Shown here one piece after another: positions 7,984-16,984 of a DNA stretch of 32,543 bases. The position numbers were made by a program, and so were the translations under genes. Position 1 is the stretch's first letter; every line of letters begins with the position of its first letter. The stretch comes from Candidatus Woesebacteria bacterium RIFCSPHIGHO2_01_FULL_39_23 (GTDB lineage: Bacteria > Patescibacteriota > Microgenomatia > UBA8517), in NCBI GenBank assembly GCA_001792305.1, contig MGGH01000029.1, positions 1-32,543 on the forward strand, in the 5' to 3' direction. The notes below the pieces were generated by a model, which saw only the letters and a list, made by a program, of their open reading frames with translations, was not told the origin of the DNA and searched no databases.

Positions 7984-9165
7984 ATGAAATCTACTGATTT
8001 CCTATCCCCGACCCAGGCTCCACGATTAAACAAACGACCGATGTTAGAAGATAAGTTAGAGTTTGAACAACAGTCATTATTGGAGACTTCAATTGCCGGG
8101 TCCATAACCCTTGGGCAGATTGTTGAAAAGGTAGCTGATAATTACGATTTTAGTGGGCTAAAACCAACGTACTTGCATCATCTCCCTCTCGGTTTAGAAG
8201 CGGAAAAATATACCTTCTGGATAGGAGAAAAACCTTATTTGTTAAAAATGAGAGTTTATGATCAATCAGAAATTAAACGTGCAGAATATATAATACAGTC
8301 TACCCATGTTGTGGAAAGAAAGCTGGAAGACGCAGGCGTTCCTATTGTTAAAACAGCACCAACTAAGAACTGGAATTCAAAAATTAATGATTACGATAGG
8401 TTTATTACACTACGGACAGAAACGGCTGCTAGTTCGCCCCTACTTATTGCTGTCTCTATCTCGCCAGTGTTTGTAGGACGCTACCTTGAAAATCCAGATG
8501 TGGTTGACGTGCAAGAGATTACCAGATTTATGGCAAAATTTCACCAGACAGAAGGTTACGGAATCGTGCCGGCAGAGGACAGTTGGTCGCTTTTACGTTT
8601 GACTGAAGCATACGAAAATGATTCGTCAAATGAGAATTTACGCCAGACTTTGAAGACCATAACTCCTGTGGTTAATGAGTTTAGGGTTCTGAAATATCAA
8701 TTTGATATGCCGGAATACTTATACCACTCTTTCACCGGCAGGACATTGGGGAAAAGACAGGGGGTGTTTCCGAAAGCATTTGCTCACGGAGACTTACACC
8801 CGGGGAATATCTTAAAGGGGGCAACTGGCGAGTATCGGATACTAGATTTGGGATGTATGGATTATCAGCCAAGGGTAGTGGATCTGGCAATTTTTTTGGC
8901 ACAAACATGTGCTAATTTTGGGGACACTGAGAAAACTAGAGAACTTTTCCAGGCTAGCATTAAGACATATGAGGAGAATAACGGATTAACAGACCACGAA
9001 AAAAGTGTTTTGCCCCTACTTATTCGCGCCAATTACGCTATGTTTGCTCTGCGTTCAGCAGAACTTCTTCAAGAAAATCCTGACGATCAGGAAATCAGAG
9101 ATTGGCACGAACGATCTATAAAAGGATTAGAGTTTATGCAGATATTAGAGTGGAATCATTCTTAA
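7984..9165 (+). CDS. Phosphotransferase family (APH/choline-kinase-like) protein
   Basis: Enzymes of this kinase-like fold transfer phosphate from ATP to small molecules such as aminoglycosides, choline, homoserine or fructosamines. The 393-residue protein has the family's Brenner motif AHGDLHPGNIL (catalytic Asp and Asn) followed by YRILDLGCMDYQPRVVDLAIFLA, where the DLG-type Asp binds magnesium. The N-lobe carries YTFWIGEKPYLLKMRVYDQ, with a candidate ATP-binding lysine. The substrate cannot be told from sequence, and resistance should not be assumed. No Shine-Dalgarno site or close -10 box supports ATG 7984. A second ATG at 8041 (MLEDKLEFEQQS) is an alternative. It lies just after the tRNA remnant, at the left edge of an accessory stretch. 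Confidence 0.8.
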   Translation: MKSTDFLSPTQAPRLNKRPMLEDKLEFEQQSLLETSIAGSITLGQIVEKVADNYDFSGLKPTYLHHLPLGLEAEKYTFWIGEKPYLLKMRVYDQSEIKRAEYIIQSTHVVERKLEDAGVPIVKTAPTKNWNSKINDYDRFITLRTETAASSPLLIAVSISPVFVGRYLENPDVVDVQEITRFMAKFHQTEGYGIVPAEDSWSLLRLTEAYENDSSNENLRQTLKTITPVVNEFRVLKYQFDMPEYLYHSFTGRTLGKRQGVFPKAFAHGDLHPGNILKGATGEYRILDLGCMDYQPRVVDLAIFLAQTCANFGDTEKTRELFQASIKTYEENNGLTDHEKSVLPLLIRANYAMFALRSAELLQENPDDQEIRDWHERSIKGLEFMQILEWNHS

Positions 9166-10828: not shown

Positions 10829-10881
10829 CGATAGACCAATAACCTGTGGAGTGGCCTCACTCCAGAGGCTTTGGTCTATCG
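10829..10881. repeat. Long near-perfect hairpin, 11+3+7 bp
   Basis: CGATAGACCAA (10829-10839) pairs with TTGGTCTATCG (10871-10881). Inside, CCT pairs with AGG and TGGAGTG with CACTCCA around a 4-nt loop. It lies downstream of the minus-strand glycosyltransferase gene and has no T-run in either direction, so it is not an ordinary terminator. Confidence 0.6.
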
Positions 10882-10948
10882 GCTTTCAGGTGCCGTCAGA
10901 GAGCTTAGTAGTTTTTAGTAAAATGGGTTCGATCCCCGACCCAGGATC

Positions 10949-13198
10949 TTATTCTGTCAGGAACTTTTTGTAGCTTTTTATTAATTCGGGTCTTTTAGTC
11001 ACCTTTTCAACCCACCCAGAAATCTCTTTGTCAGCAATATCCTTAAGTCTTTGGTACAAAATCGCATAGAATATTGTAAGCCTCTCTTCAAGAACAGAGC
11101 TTTCAATTACAAAAGACGCTATAGGCTCCATACCTTTTGTGATATTGCTTCTTATGGCTTTGACATTTTTCAAATATTGGTCAATGATATTTTTTCTTTT
11201 CTTCAACTGCTCTAGGCCAAGTTCATTCTGCCACCGGAGTAGATATTGTCTCTTTATATCGGAAAACTTTGGAAGATTGAAAACGCTTAAGTAGTAGATG
11301 TTTGGATAATTCTCGTGAATTCTTCGCAAAATTTGAGAAGATAAATAAATCCCCTCCCAAAAATAACACCATTTTTTATATCGCTTATAGTCAAATAAAT
11401 TTCTTCCCATCATCCACAAAAGGTGCGGATACATTGCTTCAACAGTTTTTACATACCCATGGGCCGATTCATAAGTTGCTTTCCATAAAAAGGGTTTCGA
11501 CTCTCCTGGCTTAGCAATATGATATTTTTCATTATCAAAAGCAATCGGTTGCTCAATACCAAGCTGTTGAACGACGAGATTTGCCAAAGTCGATTTTCCA
11601 GACAAACCTCCCAAAAAAATAAAAAGAGGGTTCTTACTCTTAGGAGAAGTAAGAAATTCTTTTACAAGCTCTAGAGTTACGTAACGAATTTTATTTTCAT
11701 CTGGCAAATGCTTGACAGTGAGGGTGAAAAGTTCATAGTTTGTTAGACCCTCAGCCGGAACTTCAGCGATAATAGATTCTGCAAGACCATAAGCACTCTG
11801 AATCATAATTCCACTGGCAATAAGTTTTCCAGATAAAAGAAGTGGAGAAATAATCCTTAAGATACCATTACTTTTAATAAACCTCTCCGACTCAACTATT
11901 AAATATTTTTTAAGTTGAACTTTAGTGTGAAACTTGCTTTTACCTATCCGAAAATTTTTATTTACAAATCTTTTGTATTCTCTCTTGTTATCTAATAGCT
12001 TCAACAACATAACGGTAGCTTTTTTTAAACTTTCTTGGCTAACCTTTGCCAAACCATTACTATCAAGGGCAACTTTATCCGATATATTAATTACTTCAAA
12101 ACCTTTTGGTTTTACGTCAGTTTTAAATACCGGGTATTCAAGAGTTATTATCGGCTTTTTGGCAAATACAGCCTCTAAAAATTGATTCCCAAATCCTTCC
12201 CATAAACTAGGATATAAAATTGTATCGGCATAAGCATAACAATCCCAAAGCGAGTATTTTTTCATCCCTTTCTCCTTTTGTTCTTCGGAACCAACCAGAT
12301 CCTGCAGCCAACGAATTTCAACTTTTAACCCTTCGGCCTTCTCTTTCAATAATTTGATGTACCCTTTTTCATCTTCAAAATAGTCATTGGGAAGAACTAA
12401 AACAGCCCGCCTATTTCCTTTAGGCTTCAAAAGACGATTTACCCAAGCCGTAAAATCTATCCCTATCTCTATTCCTTTTCTTGGCCTAACACGCGATGCA
12501 ATAAGGAAAACCAATTGTCCGTCAGTGATATTTGCGTCTTTCAGAAAATCTCTATTGCTCTCATCAGGCTTCCATGAATTGCGGCTGAAATCAAAAGTAT
12601 CAGTAATAACTTCCGCTTCGATATCTTGCAGGTTTTTCAGCTTCTTTTGTTCCCAAGTACTCAATACTGTGTGATTGATGTTATCTAACTTCGGAGGAAA
12701 ATATTTTTTAAGAACCTTCTTAATATATTCATTTTTAGTCAGATATTTATTTATTCTAGGCGGGTCCCAATAAAAATCATGATGTATACCAACAGTTTTA
12801 ATCTCTGGATGTTTAAGTAAAAAATTATAAACAGCGATCGTAGCTGGAAGACATACTGGCAGAGAAAAAATATTATGAACAAATAGTAATGTGAATTGTC
12901 GATACCTCCAGAATTCTTCTATCTCTGCTTCTATGTCTCTTACAATTACTGTAACCTTTTTTTTAAGGTCAGAAGACTCACGTTGGTTTGTGCCAAAGGC
13001 TGCCTTCTGAATTTCCTTTATCCTCAAATTATTTTTATAGTCAAAAAAAGGTATTGCCAAATCAGCCCCAGGAGAATTATTATCCGCAATAAGAGAAACC
13101 TCGTGTCCAAGTTGCTTAAGAATCGTGGCTCTTTCGTCGATTTGAAGTGAAACTCCATCAGTTAACCCTACCCTAAAATGCGCTATGCAAATCTTCAT
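10949..13198 (-). CDS. Fusion: GT4-type glycosyltransferase with 2-phosphoglycerate-kinase-like C-terminal part
   Basis: The 749-residue protein has two parts. Residues 1 to about 440 look like a retaining GT-B glycosyltransferase: the N-terminal strand KICIAHFRVGLTDGVSLQ, SRVRPRKGIEIGID near 235-248, and the sugar-nucleotide motif YPSLWEGFGNQFLEAVFAKKP near 329-349. From about 450, SPLLLSGKLIASGIMIQ..AYGLAESIIAEV resembles the ATP-cone-like region before the kinase in archaeal 2-phosphoglycerate kinases. The P-loop follows, LGGLSGKST (529-537), with FDNEKYHI after it. The P-loop is one residue shorter than GxxxxGKS/T, which may affect function. The gene starts 3 nt after the GH13_18 phosphorylase, which in other bacteria can act on glucosylglycerate. 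I infer a role in making or recycling a glycosyl-glycerate or a related phosphorylated compound; the donor and acceptor are not known. Confidence 0.75.
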   Translation of the reverse strand: MKICIAHFRVGLTDGVSLQIDERATILKQLGHEVSLIADNNSPGADLAIPFFDYKNNLRIKEIQKAAFGTNQRESSDLKKKVTVIVRDIEAEIEEFWRYRQFTLLFVHNIFSLPVCLPATIAVYNFLLKHPEIKTVGIHHDFYWDPPRINKYLTKNEYIKKVLKKYFPPKLDNINHTVLSTWEQKKLKNLQDIEAEVITDTFDFSRNSWKPDESNRDFLKDANITDGQLVFLIASRVRPRKGIEIGIDFTAWVNRLLKPKGNRRAVLVLPNDYFEDEKGYIKLLKEKAEGLKVEIRWLQDLVGSEEQKEKGMKKYSLWDCYAYADTILYPSLWEGFGNQFLEAVFAKKPIITLEYPVFKTDVKPKGFEVINISDKVALDSNGLAKVSQESLKKATVMLLKLLDNKREYKRFVNKNFRIGKSKFHTKVQLKKYLIVESERFIKSNGILRIISPLLLSGKLIASGIMIQSAYGLAESIIAEVPAEGLTNYELFTLTVKHLPDENKIRYVTLELVKEFLTSPKSKNPLFIFLGGLSGKSTLANLVVQQLGIEQPIAFDNEKYHIAKPGESKPFLWKATYESAHGYVKTVEAMYPHLLWMMGRNLFDYKRYKKWCYFWEGIYLSSQILRRIHENYPNIYYLSVFNLPKFSDIKRQYLLRWQNELGLEQLKKRKNIIDQYLKNVKAIRSNITKGMEPIASFVIESSVLEERLTIFYAILYQRLKDIADKEISGWVEKVTKRPELIKSYKKFLTE

Positions 13199-13201
13199 AA
13201 A

Positions 13202-14866
13202 TTAAAGAATGTTCCAAGAATAAGAATAAGGATCTAAAGTATAATTCTTGTTTTGATAATGTAAAGATACTTTCTGCTTTGACACATTATGAAGTGCCAA
13301 CACCTTACTTTTCCCTTCTCCTCTTACTATTGCAAACACACGTGGATCAAGATATAAAACCTCTTGTTTTGCATTTGGATGAAAGGCTTTCAAACTTTTT
13401 CTTTTTTCTACAAGATTCATCAATGCATTAAAAATGTTGAATTCTCTGCTGTTTTTGTCAGACAACTTTTCAGATATTTCTTTATAAAAAAGATTTGTAC
13501 GATTTATGTCTCTCCCGTGTTGCGTCGCCTCGTACGCTTTTGTGTCATTCTTTGCCCCAAACAACGACAAATAGTAGACAGCAGGTATCCCAGCAAAAGA
13601 CATGGCAATAGCCCGAGATGTGATAAACTTTCGCAGTTGCAACTCAAACGGCTCTTCTCCATCTTTACTCAATGCCGACCACCAAGTAATGTGCATTTCT
13701 TTTATTTCTTTTCCGCCATCGGGAAGATTGCGATATGAAAATTCTCCGCCGCGATTTTTAACTCCATCAAAAATAATTTGAAGATCATTCTTACCAAGTA
13801 TCCTGCTGGCCGCATACATATTAATACCATCGTGTACATCAAGAATATTAAAAAACGTATTACTCCTAGAATCAGTCTTGAGTCTATCAGTAAACACGCC
13901 TAGTTTTTCTGCTGATTCCGTATAGAATGCCAAAAGAACATGTGGGGCCAGCGCAAAATTATAAACAACATGCGCCTCCTTATTGTTTAAATAAGAAATG
14001 TTTTCCTCAAAGGAAGCTGTTGTCGTTTCAGTAAATATAAGGCTACCACAACTTACTTTATCCATAATTCCCCGGAACAAAGAAACTATCGTATGATTCT
14101 GAGAAAGATGCTTACAAGTCGTGCCAAGTTCTTTCCATAGTCCTCCCACTCCATCAAATCTCAATATTCTCATTCCTTTTTCTAAATAAAATAGATACAC
14201 TCTTATCATCTCCAAGAGGATTTCAGAGTTGTGATAGTTAAGGTCGGCGCGGTCAATAATTCCTCCAGTGCTATATGTAGACCAGAGATAGCGAACACCC
14301 TTTTTAGTATTAAAGGGATTTAAAAGTGGAGTCGTCCTGCCACGTCTGACCATTTTAATTTGCTCATCTGACGGAAGATTGTCTTCTCTAAAAGCGATAA
14401 AAAAGTTTTCGTAACGCGGATCTGACTCCAGGAATTTTTTGAACCAGTAATGCTCGAGTGAAACATGGTTAAGAATAAGGTCTGTCATTAGCCTATACTT
14501 TCGACCGATTGCTTTTACATCACTCCACCAACCAAACTCTTTATTGACTTGAAAGAAATCTGAAGGACAAAACCCACGATCCGACGTCGAAGGATAAAAT
14601 GGCAAAATATGGACGATGCTAAACATGCCTTCGATATATTCTCGTAGAAACTTATTGAGTGTTTTCAAAGTGGGAGTACCACTTTCTTGAAATGAATCCG
14701 CATAGGTAATAAGTGTTATATCCTTCTCATCCCAAAGCGATCTATTTTTACAAATAATTTTAGGTTTTGCTTTGTCGATAATTTTTTGAAGTTTATCAGC
14801 AGTTAGTTCGCCTCTTTCTTTTCCATACAAAGAGATCAGTTTCTGTTTAAATGAATTTCCCTGCAT
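13202..14866 (-). CDS. GH13_18 glycoside phosphorylase (glucosylglycerate/sucrose phosphorylase family)
   Basis: GH13_18 enzymes use phosphate to split an alpha-glucoside, releasing glucose 1-phosphate. The 554-residue protein shows the barrel motifs: DLILNHVS near 129-136, RFDGVGG with the nucleophile Asp238, FTETTT with the acid/base Glu280, and LDVHDG with Asp346. SLWDEKDITLITYADSF and VHILPFYPSTSDRGF match the E. coli YcjM (glucosylglycerate phosphorylase) arrangement better than classical sucrose phosphorylase. Length is the same as YcjM (about 559). An AGGAAGG Shine-Dalgarno site lies 5 nt before the start, so this gene is leadered. TTGACC at about 14908 is a possible -35 element. It is the first gene of a two-gene operon with the glycosyltransferase-kinase fusion. 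Substrate assignment is an inference; sucrose, glucosylglycerol and sucrose 6-phosphate are alternatives. Confidence 0.85.
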   Translation of the reverse strand: MQGNSFKQKLISLYGKERGELTADKLQKIIDKAKPKIICKNRSLWDEKDITLITYADSFQESGTPTLKTLNKFLREYIEGMFSIVHILPFYPSTSDRGFCPSDFFQVNKEFGWWSDVKAIGRKYRLMTDLILNHVSLEHYWFKKFLESDPRYENFFIAFREDNLPSDEQIKMVRRGRTTPLLNPFNTKKGVRYLWSTYSTGGIIDRADLNYHNSEILLEMIRVYLFYLEKGMRILRFDGVGGLWKELGTTCKHLSQNHTIVSLFRGIMDKVSCGSLIFTETTTASFEENISYLNNKEAHVVYNFALAPHVLLAFYTESAEKLGVFTDRLKTDSRSNTFFNILDVHDGINMYAASRILGKNDLQIIFDGVKNRGGEFSYRNLPDGGKEIKEMHITWWSALSKDGEEPFELQLRKFITSRAIAMSFAGIPAVYYLSLFGAKNDTKAYEATQHGRDINRTNLFYKEISEKLSDKNSREFNIFNALMNLVEKRKSLKAFHPNAKQEVLYLDPRVFAIVRGEGKSKVLALHNVSKQKVSLHYQNKNYTLDPYSYSWNIL

Positions 14867-15664: not shown

Positions 15665-16984
15665 GTGAATAACCTATTGTCCAAAGATAACCTAACTGTC
15701 TTTACAACCGCTCCGACTGGCCTCGGGCACATCCGTGTAATGGACGCCCTCCGAGACGGCTTACCAGACAACATAAATGTGGAAGAGTTGGGTATTAAAA
15801 ATATCAATGCAGCAAAAATTCACAGGCTTGGAAGCATACTACCCGTCTTACAAAAAATCACGGAGTTTTATCAGACTAATCCTTTAGTTGAAAAAATCGT
15901 AGCTGGAATATTTAAAACTTATCACCACATACATAGCAGAGAAATAGTCAATAAATTAAAAGGGTTAAGAAAAAAATATCCAGATACTAAAAAGTGGTTA
16001 ATCGTTTCTACTCATTTTGCCTTTGCTCACGAAATCGAATACGTTAAACACAAACTCGAAAAACAGTTAAACTTACAAATATTTTTATTTGTAGTAATGA
16101 CTGATGACTCCCCACAGAGAGTCTGGGTAATAAACAATGCTGACATCATTTTCTCCCCCAGCGAAAAGACTTCACTGACAATTCATTCCATGCTCAATAG
16201 CGAGTCTCAGACAAAAGTTGTCACCATTTCGTTTCCGGTTTCCCCAAGACTTACCCAAAAACTGGACAAAAACGAGTTTGACCGGCTTTCGAAGCAATTT
16301 GAACCAAGTAGTAGTGAACCACTTCACATCGAGATCCCAATAAGCGGCGCGGCAGTTCAGTTAAATTTTTTGTCTAAATTAATCGAAGCACTTCGAAACG
16401 AGAATTATAAATTCACTGTAGTTGGGCAAGATTCTATTTACACTAAAATGTTTTTTGGAAAACTCAGAAACAACCCGAATGTCCAGCTTGCAATTGGCGC
16501 AAATGCAAAGCAAACCGTCAACTATTATGAATCGCTTTTTTATCAACCATTTCGCCCGGGTGTGGAAATTACCAAGCCGTCCGAACAGGCCTTTAAATCA
16601 ATTCTTAAACCAACAGAGCGGGGTGGTGTTATTCTGCTTCTCACAAACCCCGTTGGGCGCCAAGAGAAAGACAATTTAAATTTTTTATTAAGACATGACC
16701 TTGTCCCCGACCAAAAACATCAAGAAAAACTTTTTTCTATATTGCTAACTAACCATATACTAACTAACAACGAGCTGTCGTATTGGACTTACCGCGCTAG
16801 TCATTGGAGAGGTATTAGACTGCCAAATGACCCGGCAGACGCGGCACGATACATCATTAATCTCAAGAAAAGTGGAATACTTTTATCTATGCTTTCGTAC
16901 GTTTCCCATAAGAAAAAGGAATTAACAAGTGACGGAGTAAAACAAATTTGGCAAGAAATTGACGCTTTTTTGGGTAAATTTTGA
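15665..16984 (+). CDS. GT-B glycosyltransferase, MGDG-synthase/MurG-like
   Basis: The 439-residue protein begins TVFTTAPTGLGHIRVMDALRDGL, the glycine-rich N-terminal loop and 'GHxRxxxAL' pattern of the monogalactosyldiacylglycerol synthase and diacylglycerol glucosyltransferase group. VVMTDDSPQRVWVINNADIIFSPSEKT near residue 140-170 is also typical of that N-domain (cited in parts: VVMTDDSPQRVW). The C-domain is more divergent but includes PGVEITKPSEQAFKSI near 300, where these enzymes bind the nucleotide sugar. A lipid or wall precursor is the likely acceptor. The start shown is a GTG; no Shine-Dalgarno site is visible. Its end overlaps the next, opposite gene by 98 nt. Confidence 0.7.
   Translation: MNNLLSKDNLTVFTTAPTGLGHIRVMDALRDGLPDNINVEELGIKNINAAKIHRLGSILPVLQKITEFYQTNPLVEKIVAGIFKTYHHIHSREIVNKLKGLRKKYPDTKKWLIVSTHFAFAHEIEYVKHKLEKQLNLQIFLFVVMTDDSPQRVWVINNADIIFSPSEKTSLTIHSMLNSESQTKVVTISFPVSPRLTQKLDKNEFDRLSKQFEPSSSEPLHIEIPISGAAVQLNFLSKLIEALRNENYKFTVVGQDSIYTKMFFGKLRNNPNVQLAIGANAKQTVNYYESLFYQPFRPGVEITKPSEQAFKSILKPTERGGVILLLTNPVGRQEKDNLNFLLRHDLVPDQKHQEKLFSILLTNHILTNNELSYWTYRASHWRGIRLPNDPADAARYIINLKKSGILLSMLSYVSHKKKELTSDGVKQIWQEIDAFLGKF

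Follow-up and report, generated by a model that had tools for sequence, protein, structure and literature searches.

Phosphorylase and fusion genes form one operon

The stretch of DNA analyzed here (the window) is one entire contig of 32,543 nucleotides from Candidatus Woesebacteria bacterium RIFCSPHIGHO2_01_FULL_39_23, a member of the Microgenomatia with an 850-kb genome assembly (92% complete). Two adjacent genes on its minus strand (Table 1) encode a phosphorylase of glycoside hydrolase (GH) subfamily GH13_18 and a protein in which a glycosyltransferase (GT) of family GT4 is fused to a kinase-like domain. Their three parts are relatives of glucosylglycerate phosphorylase (GGaP), mannosylglucosylglycerate synthase (MggS), and 2-phosphoglycerate kinase (2PGK) that probably work on the same class of compound, and the likely role of the set is to make a sugar-glycerate solute or to recycle one; none is filed here as GGaP, MggS, or 2PGK because a diagnostic motif or a curated cut-off fails for each. 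The first-pass annotation of this DNA, made from its letters, described two open reading frames (ORFs) 3 nt apart, the second encoding a single 749-residue protein; the coordinates are confirmed, and a ribosome-binding-like AGGAAGG lies 4 nt 5' of the phosphorylase start. The fusion recurs in Microgenomates GW2011_GWA2_44_7 (L044), where a GH13_18 gene and a gene for a 765-aa fusion are likewise separated by 3 nt. Because this genome is independent, an assembly or sequencing artefact is ruled out as the source of the fusion. The L044 operon also has a second MggS-family GT (294 bits; L044:305-1909) upstream of the phosphorylase, and thus two such transferases.

Table 1. Genes, domains, and motifs of the operon (window coordinates)
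Feature	Coordinates	Strand	Remarks
Phosphorylase ORF, GH13_18-type	14866->13202 (13202..14866)	minus	554 aa, ATG; first operon gene
Loop B motif R-G-R, residues 175-177	14336..14344	minus	R[GS]R confined to the 4 kinase-linked proteins; the 13 others have RPR
Acid/base motif TETT, residues 279-282	14021..14032	minus	Followed by one inserted residue; GGaPs have TETN
Loop A K-E-M, residues 389-391	13694..13702	minus	GGaP-marking Glu (E390) retained; preceding Tyr replaced by Lys
GT4 (MggS family) + 2PGK-like kinase fusion ORF	13198->10949 (10949..13198)	minus	749 aa, ATG
GT domain, ~residues 1-432	11903..13198	minus	MggS family; predicted retaining GT-B fold
Helical region 5' of the P-loop, ~residues 445-516	11651..11866	minus	ATP-cone-like in 2PGK; within the NF003259 match
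Kinase core, ~residues 520-749	10952..11641	minus	DxEKY, TYE, KWxYxWEGIY, YxxRWxxE, then ID, N, IR conserved
Shortened Walker A GGLSGKST, residues 530-537	11588..11611	minus	GGxxGK[ST] in 6/6 members

An MggS-type transferase joined to a 2PGK-like kinase

What are the two halves of the fusion? The N-terminal half had been called a GT4-type glycosyltransferase, which is borne out and can be narrowed to the MggS family, a more direct tie to glycerate than the first-pass annotation knew of. The MggS profile NF041101 matches residues 1-426 of the full protein (E 2e-88) and, with this half alone, aligns over profile positions 1-421 of 431 (299 bits, E 4.4e-89); it is the only strong NCBIfam match of this half and matches nine of nine related GTs tested. 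As to its specificity, three of 14 control genomes match it, T. maritima among them, and one exceeds the curated cut-off. The EX7E motif of GT4 enzymes reads EGFGNQFLE (residues 334-342), and the basic donor-site residues R236, R240, and K241 are conserved, as is H140-D141. The window GT thus resembles MggS over its full length, in the EX7E motif, and in the donor site, and differs from it in scoring below the cut-off of 640 bits and in being fused to a kinase; this comparison (with Thermotoga MggS), like that with characterized 2PGK, rests on profile scores. The predicted structure matches MshA, BshA, and PimA (target-normalised template modeling scores mostly 0.61-0.72), with MshA and BshA the closest; the acceptor of BshA, L-malate, is a hydroxy acid too.

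The C-terminal half, which matches no Pfam family, is by profile comparison a remote relative of 2PGK. The archaeal 2PGK model NF003259, its best NCBIfam model, matches residues 454-556 (E 3e-6 in the full protein, 3.5e-7 with the C-terminal part alone), and 2PGK models match five to six of the six members of the kinase family (best E 4.6e-12), the helical N-terminal region included. This region, joined to a P-loop kinase core as in 2PGK, is modelled in the fusion as four helices that precede the first strand, with block means of the per-residue model confidence (pLDDT) mostly 71-91. The window kinase differs from 2PGK in its low scores (30 bits against a cut-off of 343 for NF003259; 10 bits against 603 for the bacterial model NF008994), in its short Walker A, and in its position C-terminal to a glycosyltransferase. 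There are weak matches to uridine-kinase, mevalonate-3-phosphate-5-kinase, and PRK09270 models as well; no unrelated kinase family matched better than 2PGK, the outcome that would have spoken against the first-pass assignment. That assignment holds as to homology but not as to a canonical P-loop.

The Walker A loop is two residues shorter than the canonical G-x4-GK[ST] in all six members, which are 38-66% identical to the window kinase where they are not the window kinase itself. 2PGK itself has a full-length loop, and two remote P-loop kinases retain one of the form GGAPxxGK[ST] (GGAPLSGKS and GGAPRCGKT). That the Walker A Lys and Ser/Thr are strictly conserved speaks for catalytic activity, and the conserved short loop makes the family well suited to probing how much deviation from the consensus a P-loop kinase tolerates. 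Structure prediction adds little at this site: in the fusion model, the P-loop region and the segment that follows (residues 532-578) have pLDDT below 50, and the kinase modelled alone is poor (pLDDT 54.5). A Foldseek search with that poor model returned nothing at E <= 0.001, and its structural matches to PPK2 and guanylate kinase were not used beyond the description "P-loop kinase-like"; a search of solved structures with the kinase-alignment profile gave chance matches only.

A GGaP-like phosphorylase with an altered acceptor site

Pfam recognizes only an alpha-amylase domain in the phosphorylase. In tblastn comparisons, YcjM-type GGaPs (EC 2.4.1.352, GH13_18) align at 36-37% identity (E about 1e-105 to 1e-108; YcjM itself 37%, 9e-106), against E 1e-38 or worse for sucrose phosphorylases; over the full length, E. 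coli YcjM and its Meiothermus and Priestia relatives are 35-37% identical to it. In the tree, a 100/100 branch splits it from two sucrose-phosphorylase-type rows, and the kinase-linked GHs, together with two orphans, form the group nearest the YcjM group, with moderate support. On these comparisons the protein groups with GGaP/YcjM and not with sucrose phosphorylases. The identity as a sucrose phosphorylase fails on both of its marks: loop A, N(L/V)D(I/L/V)YQ in those enzymes, reads G-G-K-E-I-K-E, and the TIGR03852 score is 191 bits against a cut-off of 334. Specificity loops of the sucrose type, which would have undone the earlier assignment, were thus not found.

Does the protein then act as a GGaP? 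The nucleophile D238, acid/base E280, and stabilizer D346, as well as H134, R236, and H345, are invariant in the clade formed by the four kinase-linked GHs (support 97/96), and the phosphorylase shares its catalytic residues with GGaPs and carries the loop-A Glu that marks them, where most other GH13_18 clades carry Gln. The differences from GGaP cluster in the acceptor site, as seen in an alignment of 17 GH13_18 proteins, four kinase-linked and 13 others: (i) TETT replaces the GGaP signature at the tip of strand 5, (T/S)ETN (PMC7178133), and the one-residue insertion after the acid/base Glu is confined to the kinase-linked four; (ii) the RPR of loop B, shared by GGaPs, orphan relatives, and sucrose phosphorylases, is RGR; (iii) HDGxG, the form in most of the other 13, none of which has the Asn, becomes HDGxN in the four; and (iv) loop A has Lys in four of four kinase-linked proteins and none of the seven kinase-less members from the class, the others having Tyr (or Val/Ser). 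The two orphan relatives (G709 and G665, with no GT or kinase beside them) branch just outside the kinase-linked clade and read VVE and VYE in loop A. The YcjM-like grouping proposed at first therefore stands; the D-glycerate acceptor that it implied sits uneasily with TETT and three further replacements at the +1 site.

The loop-A position has a precedent. In TtSPP it is occupied by His344, a ligand of the phosphate group in sucrose 6-phosphate (PMC7178133, PMC6720575), and sucrose 6F-phosphate phosphorylase activity has been linked to kinases within the gene cluster (PMC7178133). A basic residue at the Tyr site is what the window phosphorylase (Lys) shares with TtSPP/IcSPP (GH13_18; His in TtSPP); the two differ in loop A, which is GFDVHQ with Gln in TtSPP and (I/V)KE with the GGaP Glu here, and TtSPP is more distant overall than GGaP (PDB 6S9V, E 2e-44). 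The position of the Lys thus points to an anionic, probably phosphorylated, acceptor.

A separate clade of GH13_18-like proteins with long domain B inserts also occurs in Microgenomatia (L023:7229-9181, L024:7545-9395, L091:6170-8389, L090:6314-7900); three of the four have SEVN/AEVN acid/base motifs, and they often lie near an MggS-type GT.

Distribution and history of the operon

How widespread is the arrangement? Scanning genome contigs with the single fusion sequence gave no match; a two-row kinase alignment found three loci at first, and a class-wide scan then placed the kinase in six of 374 Microgenomatia genomes, with the GT directly before it in all six. Named relatives of the fusion belong to Roizmanbacteria and a Microgenomates group bacterium. 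Among 362 genomes of the phylum, no other kinase relatives appeared except remote P-loop kinases, and none were found in plasmids and viral contigs. Two further matches were set aside as spurious: that in G577 is not carried by any ORF of at least 150 aa on the matched strand, and that in G242 (E 5.7e-5, 27% identity) falls in a short frame. The survey that the first-pass annotation called for thus reveals an operon conserved within the class: the GH-GT-kinase order is kept in four genomes, most junctions being 1-3 nt. GT and kinase are fused in only two of the six genomes, the window and L044; they are separate neighboring genes at L022/L046, L045, L054, and L056. Phosphorylase, GT, and kinase are three consecutive separate genes in L045 (Roizmanbacteria RIFCSPHIGHO2_02_FULL_38_11) and G714, and G044 and G447 have the GT-kinase pair alone, with no adjacent phosphorylase. 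Directly downstream of the pair in G447 lies a gene for a 417-aa protein with a weak oligosaccharide amylase match (TIGR01577; L056:6489-7742).

The GT family and clear GH13_18-like phosphorylases are more widespread (32 and 11 of the 374 genomes, respectively). Eight genomes have both, adjacent in six and within about 10 kb in two; Fisher tests of co-occurrence, which ignore relatedness, serve as a guide only. The E. coli ycjM, Meiothermus, and Priestia genes adjoin ABC-transporter genes, whereas the window phosphorylase adjoins the GT-kinase. The kinase-linked GTs form one clade (support 100/98), in which G447 and then G044 branch outside the four phosphorylase-bearing operons and the window and L044 are joined (100/97). 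From this branching order, the simplest history would be that the GT-kinase pair came first, the phosphorylase was recruited next, and a single fusion followed last.

In a genome of the same genus (G001), the neighbor of the operon, a 439-aa protein (window 15665-16984, plus strand), stands beside another phosphorylase/GT pair, divergently oriented, 28-34% identical, and with no kinase; the window operon has therefore probably taken over the site from a distinct pair that resided there. The 439-aa protein, also seen in L023 and L029, has weak matches to diglucosyl-diacylglycerol-synthase-like GTs, and it adjoins MggS-type GTs in G000, G001 (72% identical), and G025 (38%).

A candidate pathway and its alternatives

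The idea of three glycerate-linked activities in two genes is partly supported, insofar as all three parts have homologs in glycerate metabolism and the operon is conserved. What is observed is the operon, the fusion of neighboring genes, the family ties, the conservation of catalytic residues, and the fact that the kinase and an altered acceptor site occur together; from here on we infer all substrates, the phosphorylated position, and the direction of all three enzymes. Tentatively, and a little short of probable, the operon would serve a glycosyl-glycerate compound whose glycerate end is phosphorylated by the kinase and whose phosphorylated form is handled by the phosphorylase. In this scheme, glucose 1-phosphate and a glycerate-type acceptor would be joined reversibly by the phosphorylase; glucosylglycerate would receive a hexose from the GT4 domain, most likely mannose from GDP-mannose (the genome has a GDP-mannose pyrophosphorylase homolog, at 148 bits below the curated cut-off); and the fused 2PGK-like domain would transfer phosphate from ATP to the glycerate end, with the unsubstituted 3-OH of a 2-O-glycosylated glycerate as its most likely target. 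In the reaction of 2PGK itself, the 3-OH that is phosphorylated belongs to a glycerate with phosphate on its 2-OH (PMC12136491), and a glycosylglycerate, with a sugar on the 2-OH and the 3-OH free, would be a natural analog of that substrate. The fusion predicts that transferase and kinase share one molecule as substrate, most likely acting on it in sequence. The acceptor site of the phosphorylase would fit phosphoglycerate better than glycerate, and breakdown would yield glucose 1-phosphate and 3-phosphoglycerate, both glycolytic.

Why phosphorylate the solute at all? The glycerate-kinase families PF02595 and PF13660 were not found in the 92%-complete genome (other glycerate-kinase types were not searched for), and glycerate set free by an ordinary GGaP would hence have no way onward. 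The altered acceptor site, the missing glycerate kinases, and the fusion would all make sense if GT and kinase act in sequence on one molecule and the phosphorylase releases 3-phosphoglycerate and not glycerate. It is possible, but rather doubtful, that the route is new, with a short-P-loop kinase derived from 2PGK acting on the 3-OH of a 2-O-glycosylglycerate made by the fused MggS-type GT, and with the GH13_18 enzyme as a glucosyl-3-phosphoglycerate phosphorylase. The latter is not among the GH13_18 specificities described in the reviews consulted, and the kinase step is not described for such pathways in the literature and databases searched. If true, the proposal would extend sugar-glycerate solute metabolism by a kinase step and by a phosphorylase specificity that is new, and Microgenomatia, in which most carbohydrate chemistry has yet to be assayed, would gain a concrete pathway for a compatible solute or for storage.

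Several observations weigh against the phosphorylated-glycoside proposal. The changes in the GH arose once, in a single clade, so the correlation between the kinase and the loop-A Lys amounts to one evolutionary event; the acid/base motif is not fixed even there, the G714 phosphorylase keeping TEVN instead of TETT. GT-kinase pairs with no GH exist (G044, G447), and the kinase step hence does not need the phosphorylase. The short P-loop could mean that ATP use is changed or lost, the GT donor and acceptor may differ from those of MggS (299 bits against 640), and the missing glycerate kinases could be a gap in an incomplete genome.

Another account, though an unlikely one, makes the kinase a glycerate kinase: an ordinary GGaP would release D-glycerate, which would be turned into 2- or 3-phosphoglycerate, while the GT makes the solute. 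GGaP genes often lie beside a glycerate kinase gene (PMC7178133), the loop-A Glu of GGaP is retained here, and the lack of both glycerate-kinase families would suit this account as well. It leaves unexplained why the acceptor site changes only where the kinase is present, why the GT and not the phosphorylase is the partner of the kinase, in pairs and in fusions, and why the kinase is retained in two genomes with no phosphorylase next to it. Somewhat less likely still, the GT-kinase could make a phosphorylated glycoside as its end product, for instance phospho-mannosylglucosylglycerate, to serve as an anionic solute or as a precursor for the envelope; the phosphorylase would have been recruited later, to supply the glucosyl-acceptor core or to trim it. 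The GT tree, in which the two genomes with no neighboring GH branch first, suggests that the pair predates its association with the GH, and the second MggS-family GT of L044 would fit; nevertheless, the loci read show no recognizable gene for an exporter, lipid carrier, or polymerase beside the operon, and nothing in the sequence shows such a product.

It is improbable that the kinase similarity is at the level of the fold only, with an unrelated substrate, and that GT and phosphorylase act on a different hydroxy acid or polyol. The weak 2PGK score and the weak matches to other kinase models would allow this, and for plant 2PGK homologs inositol phosphates are the presumed substrates (PMC4844318); however, 2PGK models are the best in five to six of the six members, helical region included, and the partner families are glycerate-linked. 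Finally, a non-catalytic, ATP-sensing regulatory domain of the GT, which the short Walker A and the ATP-cone-like helices might suggest, is very improbable, since the Walker A Lys and Ser/Thr and the DxEKY, WEGIY, RW, and IR motifs are kept in all six members, the free-standing ones included.

Other features of the window

Just beyond the end of the fusion gene lies a tRNA T-loop-like stretch, AATGGGTTCGATCCCCGACCCAGG (10922-10945, plus strand), where no tRNA is called; it is possibly a relic of integration. Nearby, a perfect 10-bp inverted repeat, GATAGACCAA...TTGGTCTATC (10830-10880), falls in a GC-rich stretch (about 54%) beside the AT-rich operon. Farther away, a 393-aa APH-fold kinase (7984-9165, plus strand) matches Pfam APH and, weakly, homoserine-kinase-like families.

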